Below are positions 15,180 to 45,186 of a stretch of 64,000 bases of DNA, piece after piece. Position 1 is the stretch's first letter. Every line of letters starts with the position of its first letter. The notes under the pieces were generated by a model. It made no database searches. It was not told the origin of the DNA and saw only the letters and a program-made list of their open reading frames with translations. This DNA comes from Antedon mediterranea (taxonomy: Eukaryota; Echinodermata; Crinoidea; Comatulida; Antedonidae): contig NC_092674.1 of assembly GCF_964355755.1 (NCBI RefSeq), positions 16,561,001-16,625,000 on the forward strand. The letters run 5' to 3'. The translations under genes and the position numbers were made by a program.

Positions 15180-16744
<1,565 letters not shown>

Positions 16745-36502: not shown

Positions 36503-37060
36503 TTAATTCATTTGGAAGTTCATCCAGCTTTTAGATGAACGATAAGTAAAGGTTTTTTTGCCTTGACAAATGTTCCAGGTGGGGACAACTAAATTGTTAT
36601 GGCTTTGGCTTCGTGTGCCTTTAGAATGGGTAGTGTTATTAAAAGGCCTTTTTGAGGTCAAATATGGAGGAGCACACCCTTTTAAACACTTGAAAGTCAT
36701 TAATAATAATTTTTCATTGCAGAGTACATTTAGTCTGTTCCAGCCAAGGTTATTTAAAATAAAATCAATTGAGGTCTTAATATCAACAGAAAGCAAAATT
36801 CTACCTAATCTATTCATGAGTACTTGTAAACAATTAGTATTTTGAACAATACAATTAGACCATACACAACAACAATAATAAAAAAGGGGAAAAACAAGAG
36901 CGTTGACTAACATTTTAAGCGTATATGACGGAAGAAAACATTTTACACGCCGGATGACACAAATACGTTTTGAAACATTTGAGGATACCTTGCTTATGTG
37001 ATCATTCCAATTTAATTGCGGATCAAATGTGACCCCAAGATATTTAAAAGAGTCAACTCG
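36503..37060 (-). pseudogene. LINE fragment, post-RT C-terminal region
   Basis: One open frame on the minus strand. It includes FKYLGVTFDPQLNWNDHI near its 5' end (about 37000-37050), the conserved segment after the RT domain in CR1/Jockey-like LINEs. It continues through PSYTLKMLVNALVFPLFYYC and KLLLMTFKCLKGCAPPYLTS, as in such elements' C-termini, and stops at 36503. RT motifs and endonuclease are missing, so it is a 5'-truncated insertion in intron 4 of AMMECR1. Clade assignment by eye only. Confidence 0.8.
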
Positions 37061-37571
37061 TCGCCAAAGAAAGAGGCCTAAAAAGTGCTTGTAACACGAA
37101 ATTTTAAATGCTATTTTTTGAACATCGCGATTATAAACTGAAAGTGAACTTGCAAAATATTCAACAGTAGTAACGTATTAAAATAAAGCAAGATGAACAA
37201 CTCTAAATTATGTAAAAACGTAATTTATTGGGATTTACGACAAAGCAATGTTAAATCAATGCGTTTCGGCCCAAGAAGGAAGACTTTTTAGACGGCTTGC
37301 AACATGCGCAGACGTATTCGAGATAGCCCACAGTTATTCCTTCTAGCTTACTCAATAAAACTCGGCTAAAAACTCCATTTTAAACAAAGGGTCTTATCAG
37401 ATCTCCCTATGTAATTTTATAAATACTATTCCCCACAATATACTGCAATGCTTTATGGCGTATATTTAATTTTATCTTTATTAATTTGCAGTATATTTTT
37501 TATTTTTTAACTACTGTACCTTCACGCGCGCGGTCCGAAAACAAACAAAAAACTAAAATGGCTATAGCCAC

Positions 37572-37574
37572 TAA
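37572..37574. repeat. TAA target-site duplication, left
   Basis: TAA immediately before the left inverted repeat; the same TAA follows the right inverted repeat at 44980-44982. This is a 3-bp TWA duplication, as made by PIF/Harbinger-type elements. Confidence 0.75.
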
Positions 37575-37604
37575 GGCGTGATCTACAAATTATTTCAGAC
37601 CACA
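37575..37604 (+). repeat. left terminal inverted repeat (30 bp)
   Basis: Matches the right end in 29 of 30 positions; begins GGCGTGATC. Followed inward by CAGACGCGTTTTCTATTGTT, ACGCGTCT, CCCGTCTG and GCGTCTAGACGC motifs (37614-37684). Confidence 0.85.
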
Positions 37605-38987
37605 AATCAGCGTCCAGACGCGTTTTCTATTGTTTACCCAAAAACGCGTCTCAAAACCCGTCTGATTTGGCTGCGTCTAGACGCCAATATGCATGTTCGA
37701 CTTTGGCCCCGCCCCTATTATACGGCTGACTGCACATTCTTGGTTCTGTGTACTGGTGGTGTGGTATTAAGCCCGTTTTCCTGTCGACGTTATTCGACAC
37801 TATATTGTCGGACGATCGTTTGAAAACGATCAAGTTGAAAATAACTTTATATTAGCATTTGACTCCATGCTTTGACATATTTTAATTAGTTTGTGATATT
37901 ATTTAGTGTTGCGGATGTTCTTTTTGTAAAAAACCAATAAGAAAATATCCACAATATCCGATTTTAATTTTAAGCACATAATTGTAGATTTTTTTGTTTG
38001 TAATGTGGTATCCACTGTATCGGTCGTGCAGCGCACAACACATAACAAGCGGTAAAGACAACGAATCAGTATTCGTCGCCTTTGACATAGTTTGACGTGT
38101 ACTGGTTTGACCTTGTTTCAGGCCTTTGAATTGCGTATGCAGTATCGCCCGCCGCCCGCACAACCGGCGGTAAGACAAACAAATCAGTACTGGTATACCC
38201 TTTTACAGAGTATACTATAAAGCGCAAATTTTAGTTTTTATTCGCAACCTTTCATTTTTGCGATTTTATTTTTCTTGTGCTAAAGAGTGAATTTACCACA
38301 TGCAAAAAAACGTAAAAAAACATGGAATCACTCAAACTATTGACCTAGGCCTAGCTAGTCTGCTGCGTGCTAGTCTATCTTAACATCCATCGTGGACAGA
38401 CCTTGGTTGGTCTTGTCTAGGCCTAGCAAGATAGCTAGGCTAATTTAGGCGAACCCAGTTAATTAGGCACGTACGATCGATCTTCTAGCTAGGTTAGGGC
38501 AGGTCTCTAGGCCTAGCCAGGGTATCAGGAATAACCGCTAGTTATGATAGGCCTATGCTATGTGTTCATTTTGTTGTTGTATGGTTTAGACGATTCCATT
38601 TTCATAAGGGATGGTCATAACATCATGGAAATTACAATACAGTAATGTAGGCCTGCTGTTCATTTATTAATTACCTATATAAATGGTACTTCCGTGCGAT
38701 TGTCTATATTCCCACGGTGTTGCTGGTAGGCCTACATGTACGTTGAATTGTAACCATGGAAATGGTGTCAGTAAGATGATTTTTATGATTCGTAAGACAG
38801 TTTAATACAGAAATGAATATTGGAAATTAAAAGTGGGAACAATTTATTATTTTATTAATATTTTACTCATATTATAACGATGATTTTGAAAGACAAAATT
38901 TACAATTTTATCTTATCTTATAATCTTTTTTTTTTCAAACAATTTAAACAGCAATCGAATCGTAAAGAAAATATGAATAACAGTGTA
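37605..38987. other. left non-coding arm of the BEN/DDE transposon
   Basis: Subterminal repeat motifs (37614-37684), then unremarkable AT-rich sequence with many TAGGCCTAG motifs (about 38345-38525). No coding similarity. Confidence 0.5.
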
Positions 38988-38993
38988 TTTATT
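38988..38993 (-). terminator. AATAAA polyadenylation signal of the BEN gene
   Basis: TTTATT on the plus strand, AATAAA on the minus strand, 50 bp downstream of the BEN stop codon. Plausible by position only. Confidence 0.5.
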
Positions 38994-39042
38994 TACATTG
39001 ATTTAAAAAAAACAACTTAAATACTACAGTATATACAAACAA

Positions 39043-39674
39043 TTAAATCTGGCGACACGAACGGCATTTGCCATTGACGGCTTCTTTCAGGGCTCTTTCT
39101 TGTGTTGTAGTCGAACCGGGAAATACAGTTTCCACTTCTATGAAAATACCTTTCATTCTTGTTGGAGATAGTGGTGCCCACTCTACTCGATTACCATTTA
39201 ATTTCGTAGCTTTTCCATGTAGATTTGATTTAGCTAATTCTTCGACTGTAAATAGTTTTCTAAGAAGCAGTCTCGTCAGGGCTGTTGCTGTATGGCCAGA
39301 TGCAATGCACGTTCTGTAAACATCTTTGTTTAATGGTACTTTGCCACCAACCATTACTAGACCGTCTGGCCCAGCGGTTCGGGTCACGGGATGGTTGTTG
39401 AATAGCCGTCTGTTGACTTTAGCTGGTTGATGTAGTTGAGCTGGTTGATGATGTATTTGAGTTGGTAGAGGTATATGAGCTGGTGGATGAGTATCAGCTG
39501 GTGAATGTAGATGAGTATCAGTTGGTGAATGTGGACTAATATGAGCTGGTGAACTATGTTGTTGTTGCATGTTTAATAACTCCTTCTGATTTTGAAGTAT
39601 TTGTAAAAGCATCTCTTCAACTCGAGCTTGTCGTGACGCCAACTGCTCTAACAACTCTCCGTGATTGCAAACAT
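39043..39674 (-). CDS. BEN-domain protein of the transposon, coding exon 3
   Basis: Last exon, entered at acceptor TATTAACAG; 632 bp to a TAA stop. Residues 135-344 of the protein. Residues about 142-173 (LEQLASRQARVEEMLLQILQ...) are likely a coiled coil. Residues about 174-225 are a proline/histidine-rich linker with repeated H-S-P-A-D-T-H-like units. Residues about 244-321 (GGKVPLNKDVYRTCIASG, then LTRLLLRKLFTVEELAKSN, then WAPLSPTRMKGI) form a BEN domain, an all-helical module known in animals and some viruses that binds DNA and mediates protein contacts. The C-terminal tail has a CRSC motif. BEN assignment is from the K/D-x-Y, LL-RKLFT-EEL and SN pattern. Confidence 0.9.
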
Positions 39675-40218
39675 CTGTTAATAATTATAAAAGATTAATG
39701 TACATGTACATATTTCTTATTTTTTTAAAAATAAATTTAAACAAAAATTGTAATTTAGGCCTAAAGCAAAAAATAGCCAAATTATTTGTCAAGGCAGTTG
39801 GTTACTAATTAGCTAAAGGCTTCTAAGTGAAATCAATAAAAAAAAAAAACCTGCAAAATGGCATATAAAGTCTGATTTTTAGTAATCAATGTGTTAAGTT
39901 TTTAAGGGGCAGATTTAGTTAGTTAATTTTCACTGGCGACACAATCTTAAAATACTATTACTATGGGGTATACCATTTTGTAAAATAATTAGAATTAAAT
40001 AATTATAGTCAGTGTTACAAAAATTCAAATGTAATTTATATATCGAAAGTATGTCAGAATATGAATGAAAATATGCAATAATGTAAACAAGACATTTGTA
40101 TATTATTAAACAAAATTAATATTGTTCGTTAGTAGTCATCGGGTCGATTTGTACAATACACGAAGAGATAAAATTGGATGCGTGTGTTGGAAGAACAAAA
40201 TAAAAACAATTTACTTAC

Positions 40219-40374
40219 GACGAATTCCCATCGCTTCGTTTAAGAAATCGTGGATGATACTGTCATCATTGCTAAGAGTAGCGTCTGGTGCAGAATCTGG
40301 TTCAGCGTCTGGTGCAGAATCTGGTGCAGTTTCAACAACACATCGACGTTTTTTTAGTGGTGCTGCATTGTCAT
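40219..40374 (-). CDS. BEN-domain protein of the transposon, coding exon 2
   Basis: 156 bp between acceptor TTTTTTAG and donor GTAAGT, phase 1 to phase 1. It encodes residues 83-135: DNAAPLKKRRCVVETAPDSA, then an acidic repeat (PDSAPDAEPDSAPDA), then TLSNDDSIIHDFLNEAMGIR. KKRR is a plausible nuclear localisation signal. The PDSAPDAE repeat comes from a short tandem duplication in the DNA (about 40283-40325). Confidence 0.85.
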
Positions 40375-40761
40375 CTAAAAAAAGTCAATGTTAAATAAAA
40401 TGTAACAACATATATTACATAGGGCAATACCGTACATAAACATCTACATTATTATGGAACATATTTTATTTTTTGAATATGTACACAACTGCAGTACGAT
40501 AGAAAAACATACTGTACACGTGTGTGCATCTATTATTAAAGGGATTTTATATTTCATCATATTTTGTGTGTACGGGCTTAAAATTGTGTCAAATGGTCAT
40601 TGCGAATGATGATATGTAAACACACTTTTAAAACGCAAAATCGTCCTAATGAATGGTGATAAAATGATGAGTAAAATCCACAAATGGAAACATTCGTCTT
40701 AAAAGACATAATAATTGCACAAGGCATACATATTCACTACAATTTAATATAATTAACTTAC

Positions 40762-41008
40762 CATTGTTGTCAGCGTTGTTATTTTTGGTTTTCCAAAATT
40801 CGGCGTCTACTTTAATGAGAACATCGCTGTCATCGGACAGTTCCAAGATTTGGCATTTCAGGTTCTTTCCACTGAAAGTAATTTCCGCCACACTTTTAAT
40901 GTTTACGTCTCCACGAAGTTTTTTGGATGGCACAATGCTCGTGCTTTCATCGAACTCGAAATAAACTAAGGCAAACTCTGGATTCCTTGATAAGCGACGG
41001 CGACTCAT
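40762..41008 (-). CDS. BEN-domain protein of the transposon, coding exon 1
   Basis: Starts at ATG 41008 (MSRRRLSRNPEF) and ends at donor GTAAGT (40761 downward): 82 codons plus one base. The module FALVYFEFDESTSIVPSKKL...FWKTK resembles the N-terminal small beta-rich module seen in other invertebrate BEN-domain proteins (pattern FALV-F-D-ST-VVPS). That comparison is from memory and weaker than the BEN call. With exons 2 and 3 this gives a 344-residue nuclear protein: N-terminal module, acidic/NLS segment, coiled coil, BEN domain. It is transcribed away from the transposase gene and shares a 322-bp upstream region with it. Likely role: sequence-specific binding to the transposon ends or help for the transposase (inference). 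It is unlikely to be a host gene because it lies within the element's inverted repeats. Confidence 0.85.
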
Positions 41009-41330
41009 GATTTACTATGATATTTGACGAATTTAATATTTGATGTATCTAAGGCAATTGCAGAAAGAGAAGTGAATTTAATAGCTGCTTAGAGCCTTTT
41101 TATTTAGGTATACAGGGAGTTGTAGGAACTCCCTTGTTTGTGCATTGAAAGCCGTTTCAATTAATTTGCTTATATACAATTAAAAGCTAGCACCTATTTT
41201 TTTTTATAGAACAGCAACACCCAATTCAATTAAGAGTGAACAAAAGCGTTGATTTATGGTTTTAGCAACGCCTTGGCCTATGCAAAAACAAATTCAGTAT
41301 ACTATTATTATACTATTGTTACTATTCAAG
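41009..41330. promoter_or_regulatory. putative bidirectional promoter between the two transposon genes
   Basis: Only 322 bp lie between the divergent start codons. A hairpin GGGAGTT-GTAGG-AACTCCC (41115-41133), followed by TTGTTTGTGCATTG, sits in the middle. The same hairpin and flank occur inverted at about 16795-16830 beside Helitron 1. TTATATACA at about 41169 could be a TATA element. No direct evidence for a transcription start. Confidence 0.45.
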
Positions 41331-41622
41331 ATGTTATCAAGTCCACGTTCTCCGAATTTTTCTTCAAAACTAGCCTCGGGCAATTACTTTAGAACCAAGA
41401 AAACAAAATGCATATCAAATATTAAACCAGTTGGTCGTCCGTCCATTACGTCAAAATTTCCATATATGATCACTGTTGCAAGGCAATTTGTAGAAAACAA
41501 CGGGTTTGAAGCCCATAGGAGACGGCAGTCTACCACAGGCCTTTGTGGTACTGGGTTGAAGGAGCTACGAAGGCACCTGCTACAAGAAATCGAAGGACTT
41601 CGCGATCAACATCCACAATTTA
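41331..41622 (+). CDS. DDE-type transposase-like protein, coding exon 1
   Basis: Start chosen at ATG 41331 (MLSSPRSPNFSSK; A at -3). An in-frame ATG at 41256 would add 25 mostly hydrophobic residues and looks less likely. Ends at donor GTAAGT, phase 1. Residues 1-97 include a basic segment, then PVGRPSITSKFPYMITVARQ and an R-rich stretch (EAHRRRQSTTG), which suits an N-terminal DNA-binding helical region. The full product is 552 residues over three exons. Catalytic candidates are D168 (exon 2), D287 and E331 (exon 3). I recall similar uncharacterised proteins, with SDGGPD and N-IEH-W motifs, in other invertebrate genomes, but not a family name. Likely role: cutting and joining the element's ends in the nucleus (inference). 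Confidence 0.8.
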
Positions 41623-41930
41623 GTAAGTACAGTATAAATGTTTTGAGAACGAAAGTTGACAATATTTACTGCTTTTTATTATACATTTTATTGTTTAAAT
41701 TTGTTTAGTTAGTTTTTAGTTTTAAAATATAAATTGAAAAAAATTAAGTTTGACAGCAACAAAATTTATTTTTTCATACAATTTAAATTACAGTATATAT
41801 ATAGATATTCTTCAGATGATTAGCAGATTACTTTTATTGTAATTGTTTTACAATTTGTTTTTTTATATTATCATTGCCCACATCGTTTTTATATTATTTC
41901 CTGCTTCAAGTTATTCAATTGTTTTTGTAG

Positions 41931-42164
41931 GTGTTGATACTGTTCATAAAATGTTCAAAAGTCCACATGAAGGGAGAAAAACCTCTGCGCGTTACAAAGG
42001 AAACATTAATGCAAAAGTCCCACCTAAAGACAACTCAAAGATGAAGGAGAATCCAAATGGACACTTCTACAGCGCCCGTGTAAAGTATTGCCTTCAACTG
42101 TCTGCTAGCTACCCAGCTAATTGTTGCGTGTTTTCAGTGGACAACAAGAACAAAATTAAAATTG
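41931..42164 (+). CDS. DDE-type transposase-like protein, coding exon 2
   Basis: 234 bp between acceptor GTTTTTGTAG and donor GTATGT. Residues 98-176: SVDTVHKMFKSPHEGRKTSA onwards to CCVFSVDNKNKIKIG. The VFSVDNKNKIKIG segment resembles the first catalytic strand of RNase H-fold transposases (hydrophobic strand, D168, then K-I-IG), as in Tc1/mariner relatives. The SPHEGRKTSARYKGNI segment is basic. Frame joins to exons 1 and 3 without loss. Confidence 0.8.
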
Positions 42165-42317
42165 GTATGTAAATTAAGTGCTTTTTAATCTAAATCACGG
42201 TATTCACAATTTAAACACAGTCTAATTTTTGAAACACGCCATTTTTACAAAAAGTTTGCCCTTGATATAAATTAAACTTTTACCAAGTGTATATTACCAA
42301 ATATATTTATTATTTAG

Positions 42318-43450
42318 GATCGGATGTTCTTGCAGTGGATAGACACATAAGCATACGCCGTTTTTTCCCGTGCAACGACAAACCTATATACAGTGATCAT
42401 GACTTCCCTTCACGTGCTGGCAACTTGGTTACTCCATGCGGGTATATGAAGCTTACTCTACCGAACCCTCCTGAAAATACATCAGATAAGCATGGTCGTA
42501 AGGAACTTAAAGTTCATCGAAGTGGACCAGTGACGATAGTTAATAGAGGACCGATGACAAAATGTACCATTGCCTCGCATATAAACGACTTGTTACCTTT
42601 AGTGATAAATGAAGTTCATAACGGCAAAACGATAGTTTCTATTATTGCAGATGGCGGTGGGGATTTCAACACTGGACACCATACGAATCTTCTGTATTAT
42701 GCAAGGCTTTTCCGAAAAACTGCACTGGATGCCCTAATAGTTACCGCTTACGCTCCTGGTCAATCGGCATTCAACATGATCGAACATGTATGGGGAGCAT
42801 GTACGGCAGCCCTGACATCTGTTTCCATACCAGATAAACTTCCCGGAGAAACACTCTGTCCATGGCAACAAGGTCTATCAGAAGACGAGCAACAACAGAA
42901 GGAGTGCAGAATGTACGACATTGCGATGCAGACTCTTGGCAACTATTTAAGTAATGTGGAGTTTGGGGGGCTTCCGATTAATGTTCAGTATATTCCCTCG
43001 TCGGGCCAGGAACTACCATATGCTGATTATAATGAGGTTTATGCCGTAATGTCGAGTAACAGTGGTAAAGTCTACAGAGAAAGTCAACTACAGGATGAGG
43101 TTAACTTTATGCTTAAACATATAGATAAACGCATAGGATTTATTTCATTTATCAAATGTTTAGACAATACTTGTTCTCACTGCACAGCTAATCCAATTAT
43201 TGCCAACGATATATTACGACCGATAATTCAGGCTGGGGGGTTTCCATCTCCAATGTGCAATGAGAAAGGGGACCATTACTTGACTTTCAATGAAGTTATT
43301 GGTCTACCATCATGGGACACAACCGACATGGCAATGCGTGCGCCTGTCGGTCGGTGTCGCTTTTGCCCATCATACACTTTTAGCAGCAATGCAGAGGTAA
43401 CATCACACAGAAGAAAATATCACCCAAGACAAGATGTTTTAAAAGAATAG
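42318..43450 (+). CDS. DDE-type transposase-like protein, coding exon 3
   Basis: 1133 bp from acceptor TTATTATTTAG to stop TAG. Residues 177-552. IVSIIADGGGDFNTGHH supplies D287, and APGQSAFNMIEHVWG supplies E331 (43 residues between). With D168 these form a plausible D-D-E triad. A CLDNTCSHC segment and a C-terminal finger CRFCPSYTFSSNAEVTSHRRKYH (C522, C525, H539, H544; C2H2 type) follow. It lacks the SxVVE-FG type motifs I associate with Harbinger DDE_Tnp_4 enzymes. No stop or frameshift. Alternative: a domesticated protein, but its place inside near-identical inverted repeats argues for an active or recently active transposase. Confidence 0.8.
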
Positions 43451-43461
43451 GCAATGTTTTG

Positions 43462-43751
43462 AAATGAAAAGGTTATATGTAAATATGTGTATTATAAAGA
43501 TATGTTTTGAAATTGTCATTTTTAGTATACAGAGTAATAGACCTATAAATAATTATATATGCTTCTAAATTAAATATTGCATTTTTTTTGTGTTAATATG
43601 TTTTTTAAATGAAAAGGTTATATGTAAATATGTGTATATAAAGATATGTTTTGAAATTGTCATTTTTAGTATACAGAGTAGGCCTAATATACCTATAAAT
43701 AATGATATATGCTTCTAAATTAAATATGTATTTGCATTTTTGTTTGTGTTA
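43462..43751 (+). repeat. tandem duplication of about 145 bp in the transposase 3' UTR
   Basis: AAATGAAAAGGTTATATGTA followed by AATATGTGTAT...AAAGATATG starts at 43462 and again at 43607. The second copy has small indels. It lies between the stop codon and the AATAAA signal. Confidence 0.85.
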
Positions 43752-43757
43752 ATCATA

Positions 43758-43763
43758 AATAAA
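43758..43763 (+). terminator. AATAAA polyadenylation signal of the transposase gene
   Basis: AATAAATAAATAA about 310 bp downstream of the stop codon; the first clear canonical signal after the 145-bp duplication. Confidence 0.45.
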
Positions 43764-44199
43764 TAAATAAGTCTTCTTGAAATTGTAATTATTTCTACTT
43801 ATTTGTCTATATACGAAAATAACGTTTAAATCCCGTTTAAAAAAATTGTTTTCATTCAGTTTGCCGACGACATTTTTTTTGGGCTTTGATATGAAATATG
43901 AATCAATACCTCTTACGATTGACGATTTAGTGACGCTTATCAGCATGTTAACGCGGGTTTCAATCATGACTTGATTCGTGTTAACGCGAATTGGCGCGAA
44001 GTAGCAAGATAGTACAGTAGGTAATGCAACGCAACGATTTACTGTCACTCTCGCTCGCGATCAATTAGGCCTAGCATCAGGTAAATTTCGGTTATTTTTA
44101 CATTTTGCCAGAGACATGGATGATTATGCGTTTGTCGGGGAATATAATATACAGTAAAAATCGTTCGCGTTCACTTCGTAGCTTCAGCGCCTAGAAAAC

Positions 44200-44470
44200 C
44201 ATTACATTCCTTTGACCGTAAGTAGACCTACGTCAGAGGGATATTATGCACTTTATATGCATTCATTATTGCCAGCGATCTAACTACTAAACAAAATAGC
44301 TAGGTAGTACGCACTTGTCTGGCGGTGTCCCTTTGTACGAATCGTTCAGCGTTGGGTCCACACGCGCGATATCATGTTCCATCCAGGGACCAAAATGTGT
44401 ACTGTAGTTACTTTCCAGGCGAAGTTTACAGACGGTTAATTACTTCGTGTACGATCCAATGGGAAAAAAC
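44200..44470 (-). repeat. dispersed GGTCCCTGGATG repeat, copy 3 of 3
   Basis: Reverse-complement copy of 29521-29760 (TTCCATCCAGGGACCAAAAT and, further left, CCAGCGATCTAACTACTAAA). It lies in the right arm of the BEN/DDE transposon. It is either a nested insertion or part of the element's own arm that has spread with it. Confidence 0.7.
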
Positions 44471-44719
44471 CTCGTTTGTGGGTTTTACGTTTCCGGCCGT
44501 TGTGTGCATAAACTTGTATACGCAGATATATTTTCTTTGCTAGTGTGCCACTGTTTTAAAAGTGTAGATTTCCAAACAAATTATTAATAATAATTCATTT
44601 TTTGTACTGTAGTATGTATTACATTTTTTTGTAATTCGCAGATTTAAGTGATGTTAACTAATAATTAACGTTTTGACCTAAACAATGATAAGCTTGTTGG
44701 TTAATTAACAACATAGGTG

Positions 44720-44948
44720 GTAATACGCGTCTTCTATCTATTGTTTCACCATACAAGCAATACAGACGGGTTTTAATCACTCAGACGCGTTTTCTATTGT
44801 TTTACCTACTAACAGCGAAGACGGGTTTCAATCACACAGACGCGTCTTCACCGCGATTGGGTAGCTCATGAATATTCATAATAGATCGTTAATGAGGTTC
44901 AGCATTGGACAGACGCGTCTGATGAGTGGCAAGTTTCCAGACGCGTCT
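44720..44948. repeat. subterminal palindrome array, right arm
   Basis: Perfect AGACGCGTCT palindromes at 44838-44847, 44911-44920 and 44939-44948, with diverged relatives (ACGCGTCTTC, CAGACGGGTTTTAATCAC, CAGACGCGTTTTCTATTG) at about 44724-44830. The longer motif CGCGTTTTCTATTGTTT at about 44787 recurs at 37619 in the left arm, in the same orientation. Likely binding sites for an element-encoded protein. Confidence 0.8.
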
Positions 44949-44949
44949 C

Positions 44950-44979
44950 TGTGGTCTGAAATAATTTGTAGATGACGCC
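44950..44979 (-). repeat. right terminal inverted repeat (30 bp)
   Basis: TGTGGTCTGAAATAATTTGT then AGATGACGCC; its reverse complement equals the left end except for one base. Followed by TAA (44980-44982), the target duplication. Confidence 0.85.
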
Positions 44980-45186
44980 TAACGGCCAACAATAGTTGAA
45001 ACCAAGAAGTTTCAAGGTGAACCTGTGAACTCATCGTGAGCCCGGAAATTACTTTGACCCGCGTACAATTGAAATTTAATTGAAAATCTACTGATGAAAT
45101 CAGAAATTTTGTTATAAAACCCTTTATAATTCAATTCACTTTTATTTCAGACCAAAGTCCATATCATAACAAATAACAATATTCAA

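Follow-up and report, generated by a model that had tools for sequence, protein, structure and literature searches.

A two-gene transposon in the crinoid genome

In a 64,000-nt stretch of the Antedon mediterranea genome (the window; NC_092674.1, positions 16,561,001 to 16,625,000), we found an element of 7,405 bp (37575-44979) that is probably a cut-and-paste ISAzo13/Zator transposon, by all indications autonomous, in which a transposase gene is accompanied by the gene of a BEN-domain protein that would bind sequence arrays inside the element ends. The element belongs to a mobile family. Its two genes form a true pair, which recurs in a second, diverged family of the same genome.

The element starts at 37575 with GGCGTGATCTACAAATTATTTCAGACCACA, and the inverted copy of this sequence terminates at 44979. 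The terminal inverted repeats are 30 bp long (37575..37604 on the + strand, beginning with 5'-GG, and 44950..44979 on the − strand) and identical at 29 of 30 positions; further inward similarity is lost. They are flanked by a TAA target-site duplication on the left (37572..37574) and on the right (44980..44982).

We searched the host genome (354 Mb, 18 contigs) with these ends. The left 60-mer gave 38 matches, 35 of them full length, and the right 80-mer gave 41. Ends were paired when they were correctly oriented and at most 9 kb apart, with 40 of the 41 right-end matches entered and a 38-base inner piece left out. In this way 32 of the 38 left ends found a right end, with six left and eight right ends remaining single. 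The shortest paired copy has 1,114 bp and the longest 7,405 bp, and most are about 1.7 kb long. The flanks of all 32 pairs were read, and the flanking trimers were identical (TAA or TTA, together TWA) in 30 of them, the window copy included, with chance agreement of two trimers at about 2.2%. Of the remaining two pairs, one is flanked by TTA and TAA, and in the other an end is broken. The 30 TWA copies include two (C1, 10.10 and 10.59 Mb) that have common flanks and are a single insertion, duplicated along with its surroundings. In six pairs of copies that we compared, the main aligned pieces (0.2-1.6 kb) were 94-99% identical, which suggests a recent spread, no clock being set.

Two divergent genes encode a transposase and a BEN-domain protein

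The exon models were predicted from reading frames and splice consensus alone. The predicted transposase gene lies on the + strand and has three exons (41331..41622, 41931..42164, and 42318..43450, the last including the stop codon), which encode 552 amino acids (aa) with no internal stop. Its catalytic residues are D168, D287, and E331. The first catalytic Asp, D168, is contained in exon 2, whereas exon 3 contains D287, E331, and two C-terminal Cys clusters. The partner gene lies on the − strand and also has three exons (41008-40762, 40374-40219, and 39674-39043, the last including the stop codon), which encode 344 aa with no internal stop. Here exon 1 carries an N-terminal module that is kept in the diverged family, named family 2 (47-48% identity over 73 aa, two copies), and exon 3 carries the BEN domain. 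All four introns of the two predicted genes are GT-AG, and the stretch between the genes spans 41009-41330.

The BEN domain matched Pfam PF10523 over residues 267-339 (E 4.8e-6), and its 27.1 bits lie above the cut-off of 23.2. No Myb/SANT domain was matched when the partner was scanned against Pfam. When only exon 3 of the window transposase was folded, with no alignment, the mean predicted local distance difference test (pLDDT) score was 33.5, which is uninformative. Sequence searches of the PDB returned nothing meaningful, and searching viral contigs, plasmids, and phages with the window transposase revealed no relative.

The transposase and BEN genes recur as a pair

Searching the genome with the transposase yielded 47 exon-level matches at 23 loci, and the partner search gave 25, spread over 15 loci. 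In the window family (family 1) both genes were found once. Of the 15 partner-like loci, nine are no more than 5 kb away from a transposase-like locus; conversely, a partner match is present within 10 kb of nine among the 23 transposase-like loci.

Compared with the window proteins, the transposase of family 2 is 56-65% identical (by exon) and its partner 42-48%. Copies of this family are present on C3, C4, C5, and C11, and every one matches both genes. The copy on C5 (14990918-15004721) is a complete one, with TAA, GGCGTCATCTCC, matches to both genes, GGAGATGACGCC, and TAA, as read outside its middle (14996781-15003299); one stop lies within its transposase exon 3. The family-2 partner matches PF10523 at 26.0 bits. 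Judged by the end marks, the position and direction of the partner gene are kept in families 1 and 2, and the transposase gene is inverted in family 2. Because family 2 has both genes inside its own ends, and because nine of the 15 partner-like loci adjoin transposase-like loci, we conclude that the two genes are a true pair. A third family (family 3, L043) is represented by an element of 4,646 bp with TAA on both flanks, ends alike over 40 bp, and a transposase remnant of 61% identity; a search of it for a partner gene found none.

These results bear on an earlier note on this DNA, which was made from its letters alone. The 30-bp inverted ends (29/30) and the perfect TAA duplication that it described were confirmed when the ends and flanks were read again, as were the two divergent, spliced, unbroken genes and the BEN domain of the companion protein. 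The genome search with the terminal ends, which it had put forward as a check, gave the paired ends and identical trimers described above, and the pairing of a transposase with a BEN protein was found again inside the ends and TAA duplications of the second family. The note had counted it against the proposal if copies of the ends lacked the genes and the genes occurred elsewhere as single-copy host genes. In this respect the outcome was mixed and did not refute the proposal: most paired copies are short (about 1.7 kb) and just one holds the genes, but two families have them enclosed by matching ends, in the window and in the family-2 copy on C5.

Several other matches were noticed in these searches. 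At C5:13041715-13041966 (G000), remote from transposase matches, the N-terminal module of the partner (residues 1-81, E 7.2e-4) is matched within a 396-aa frame, possibly a host gene with this module. Five partner-like matches with no transposase match within 10 kb (C5:17814868-17815455, C2:25287446, C9:11424743, C4:13600779, and C4:12819794) may be remnants or host BEN genes. A separate 4.7-kb family (L047, 2851-7560, and L048, 3132-7820) has an 833-aa transposase frame (PF07592, E 0.0067). At the homology borders between its two copies the ends are 5'-GGC and the duplications TTA and TAA, and the partner search gave no BEN match in it. This family is perhaps a plainer Zator-like element of the same genome.

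The transposase is related to bacterial ISAzo13

In single-sequence scans of the window transposase, ISAzo13 models were the sole matches, among them NCBIfam NF033519 (ISAzo13; E 1.5e-4, residues 274-333). We took bacterial ISAzo13 proteins from plasmids (eight 2.4-kb loci) and compared a profile of the three host-genome families with one of six bacterial proteins in hhalign. The match had a probability of 93.8 and an E of 1.8e-7, and the three catalytic motifs were all in register. As controls, eight column-shuffled profiles gave E 0.015-0.74, a reversed profile 0.26, and an IS630 DDE reading frame 0.0033. When eight rows, ranging from the bacterial proteins to the window transposase, were aligned, all of them shared the second Asp and the third-motif S..N..E. 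An unrooted tree (11 sequences, 237 columns, with the first part of the L043 row poorly aligned) placed the window together with families 2 and 3, followed by L049, L047, and the bacteria.

Five of the eight bacterial loci were examined for ends. Three of them (L058, L059, and L061) have GG...CC ends with identical TWA flanks, which are TTA in Thiothrix, TTA in Oscillatoria acuminata, and TAA in Mesorhizobium, where the ends show 3 mismatches in 16. The Streptomyces locus (L056) has an inverted repeat with flanks other than TWA, and no ends were found in the Rhodococcus locus (L057). Since the bacterial loci and L047/L048 have like ends, GG...CC ends and TWA recur through the group. Taken together, it is strongly indicated that the transposase joins the bacterial ISAzo13 group, as an enzyme of the DDE type acting on 5'-GG...CC-3' ends with insertion into TWA. 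The earlier note had named no superfamily with this pairing and had called the element a candidate undescribed transposon. A position outside every named superfamily was not borne out, given the ISAzo13 matches and a named eukaryotic counterpart, Zator.

CG-rich words are repeated inside both ends

Inside both ends of families 1, 2, and 3 we observed repeated CG-rich words, which are specific to each family. In the window, the left subterminal array (37605..37690, + strand) consists of GACGCG/AGACG words, and the right array (44720..44949, − strand) includes three perfect CGCG palindromes, at 44838 (AGACGCGTCT), 44910 (CAGACGCGTCTG), and 44939 (AGACGCGTCT). AGACGC occurs 12 times in the two family-1 ends taken together, a count reached in 0 of 300 shuffles, compared with 0.34 expected from the interior. 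CAAACG is found eight times in the family-3 ends (0/300 shuffles) and GCGACC five times in those of family 2 (4/300). The distant L047, where no BEN gene was found, has no comparable array (298/300 shuffles).

Two further marks are common to the three families. In each of them TTCATGAG lies exactly 108 bases from one end, which in the window is the right end (44865..44872, − strand). CCGCCC followed by TGACTG lies 135-174 bases from the opposite end; the two words of the window block (37709..37732, + strand) are at distances of 135 and 153 bases from the left end, and one end of family 2 and one of family 3 also have both words together.

In the excerpts of two published studies, the BEN domain of BANP is described as binding CGCG, and BANP and BEND3 as favoring unmethylated CpG (PMC10206803, PMC11472053). 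The arrays are therefore candidate targets for a BEN partner.

Proposed mechanism and alternative explanations

We propose that the two proteins share the work of transposition. As expected from its family, the transposase would cleave at the 5'-GG ends in the DDE manner and insert the element into TWA. The BEN protein may bind the family-specific CG-rich arrays inside both ends, as the arrays and BEN biology suggest, and once bound it would bring the transposase to the ends, which is the role of the Myb-like protein in PIF/Harbinger. The gene pair of the window copy, or that of a relative, may have mobilized the non-autonomous copies of about 1.7 kb. A more far-reaching version, tentative and in our view rather doubtful, makes this a distinct ISAzo13/Zator lineage with a BEN gene, whose BEN protein is a methylation-sensitive targeting subunit that transposition cannot do without. 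The protein would read unmethylated CG-rich arrays inside the ends, so that only unmethylated copies move. This would be a second, independent origin of the two-protein design known from PIF/Harbinger, and elements of this kind could have seeded animal BEN genes.

A number of observations weigh against a BEN-assisted ISAzo13/Zator transposon. With regard to the affiliation, NF033519 scored 20.9 bits against a cut-off of 200, so the transposase is to be seen as kin of the bacterial ISAzo13 family and not as a member; Pfam PF07592 (E 0.015) is under its cut-off, and scans of L043 and L049 against the ISAzo13 models gave no match. Three typical bacteria alone (L056-L058) reached a probability of 36.5 (E 3.7e-4) and two cyanobacterial members alone (L061-L062) 3.9 (E 0.011), and the ISAzo13 link therefore depends on the joint profile. 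Against the bacterial profile, L047 reached a probability of 53.4 and L049 just 5.1. With regard to the pairing, six partner-like loci out of 15 lack a transposase match at up to 10 kb, and no partner match lies that close to 14 of the 23 transposase-like loci. Many of these loci are fragments, and the 14 also include distant lineages. L047, L048, and L049, however, seem to be lineages lacking a BEN gene, and in the window family only one copy has transposase matches. With regard to the arrays, the window contains 22 perfect CGCG palindromes of at least 8 bases, just 3 of which are at the element ends, and the 300 bases at either end of family 2 contain none. CCGCCC alone is present at both ends of family 2, and CGCG occurs six times at one L047 end and seven times at one L048 end. 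The arrays may be bound by the partner or, instead, by the transposase, and a need for the partner is hypothetical.

The main rival to a transposition cofactor is a BEN gene that acts as a passenger or regulator, for example a repressor or an anti-silencing guard, and aids the persistence of the element. BEN proteins, as the excerpted literature presents them, are known chiefly as chromatin and transcription factors, relatives with clean ends and no BEN gene exist (L047, L048), and the intergenic stretch 41009-41330 would suit self-regulation. However, the CG-rich words sit in the family-1 ends and are rare inside, as the excess of AGACGC indicates, and we regard such a role as somewhat unlikely. 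It is improbable that the element represents an undescribed superfamily parallel to Zator and PIF/Harbinger, as the earlier note proposed. The weak single-sequence matches to curated models, the long branch toward the bacteria in the tree, and a search of titles and abstract openings that yielded no BEN-bearing transposon would fit that proposal, whereas the ISAzo13 profile-profile match spans all catalytic motifs, like ends with TWA duplications are present in three of the five bacterial loci, and the published excerpts already make Zator the eukaryotic side of the group (PMC5718144, PMC10045372).

Two more explanations appear very improbable. One is that the BEN gene is a host gene trapped by chance in one transposon copy, in line with the genes being in only one copy of the window family. 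Against this, a diverged family has the same pair, pairs occur at nine loci, and the family-2 copy on C5, with both genes between its own ends, makes such a chance event unlikely. The other is a PIF/Harbinger element with a swapped partner, which would account for the TWA duplications and the two-gene design. TWA with 5'-GG ends is, however, also found in bacterial ISAzo13, and ISAzo13 alone appears among the Pfam and NCBIfam hits. No Harbinger/IS5-type DDE model was among the Pfam hits (limit E 5, with HMMER filters dropping most above about 0.1), and no direct Harbinger comparison was made. With the Pfam, NCBIfam, and profile-profile matches all leading to ISAzo13, PIF/Harbinger membership is not supported.

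Should the partner be needed, two transposase families would separately have come to depend on a DNA-binding helper, Myb-like in one and BEN in the other, and comparison could then address why cutting and recognition are divided between proteins in transposons. The element may also be a mobile source of BEN-domain genes, and it could serve as a natural test case for a gating of transposition by CpG methylation of the ends.

Other features of the window

Frames of a non-LTR (long terminal repeat) retrotransposon occupy 372-1776 of the window (RVT_1, E 1e-16; zf-RVT, E 8e-8), and similar frames were seen by eye in L044. To the left of the element, a 224-aa frame on the − strand (36503-37177) looks by eye like the C-terminal region of a reverse transcriptase from a retrotransposon, with no Pfam match. 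An exon matching AMMECR1 (PF01871, E 1.3e-10) is located at 15180-15545 and likely belongs to a host gene.

Comparison with known systems

PIF/Harbinger elements make TWA duplications, and their second protein is thought to recruit the transposase. As far as an excerpt of one study describes them, two proteins are needed and non-autonomous copies are mobilized (PMC2836001). The window element is alike in its two encoded proteins, its TWA duplications, and its putatively mobilized non-autonomous copies, but its transposase is of another family and its partner is a BEN protein in place of a Myb-like one. Of the PIF/Harbinger logic that the earlier note applied, the two-gene design and the TWA duplications were found; the link is one of analogy, with no Harbinger-type Pfam hit.

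Zator is described, in the excerpts of the papers concerned, as the eukaryotic superfamily paired with ISAzo13, with 3-bp duplications (PMC10045372, PMC5718144), and is placed beside TP36 and IS630 (PMC7386202, PMC8533490). Zator being the published eukaryotic side of ISAzo13, we read the element as Zator-like, a likeness drawn from published descriptions and not from sequences. Both share a eukaryotic host, a transposase related to ISAzo13/TP36 (PF07592; below the Pfam cut-off here, with E 1.5e-4 in NCBIfam and 1.8e-7 in hhalign), and 3-bp target-site duplications, which here were identical TWA trimers in 30 of the 32 pairs. Unlike the window element, Zator has no BEN partner mentioned in these excerpted descriptions. 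No paper joining "Zator" and "BEN domain" was found in a literature search, and titles and the first parts of abstracts, with Repbase outside the scope, showed no BEN-bearing transposon. Within the reach of these searches, the new part of the element is thus its BEN partner.

Bacterial ISAzo13/TP36 elements share the DDE motifs, the invariant second Asp, and the S..N..E with the window transposase, as well as GG...CC ends and TWA in three of five loci. They differ in having no introns and in a DD42E spacing (by eye, L058 and L061), compared with DD43E in the window transposase; the annotation of the eight 2.4-kb loci lists no BEN gene, no dedicated BEN search having been made. Finally, the partner shares the PF10523 domain with BANP, BEND3, and other BEN proteins, and the CGCG/CpG preference reported in the excerpts on BANP and BEND3 fits the arrays. 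Unlike those proteins, the window partner is carried by a transposon and has an N-terminal module common to families 1 and 2.

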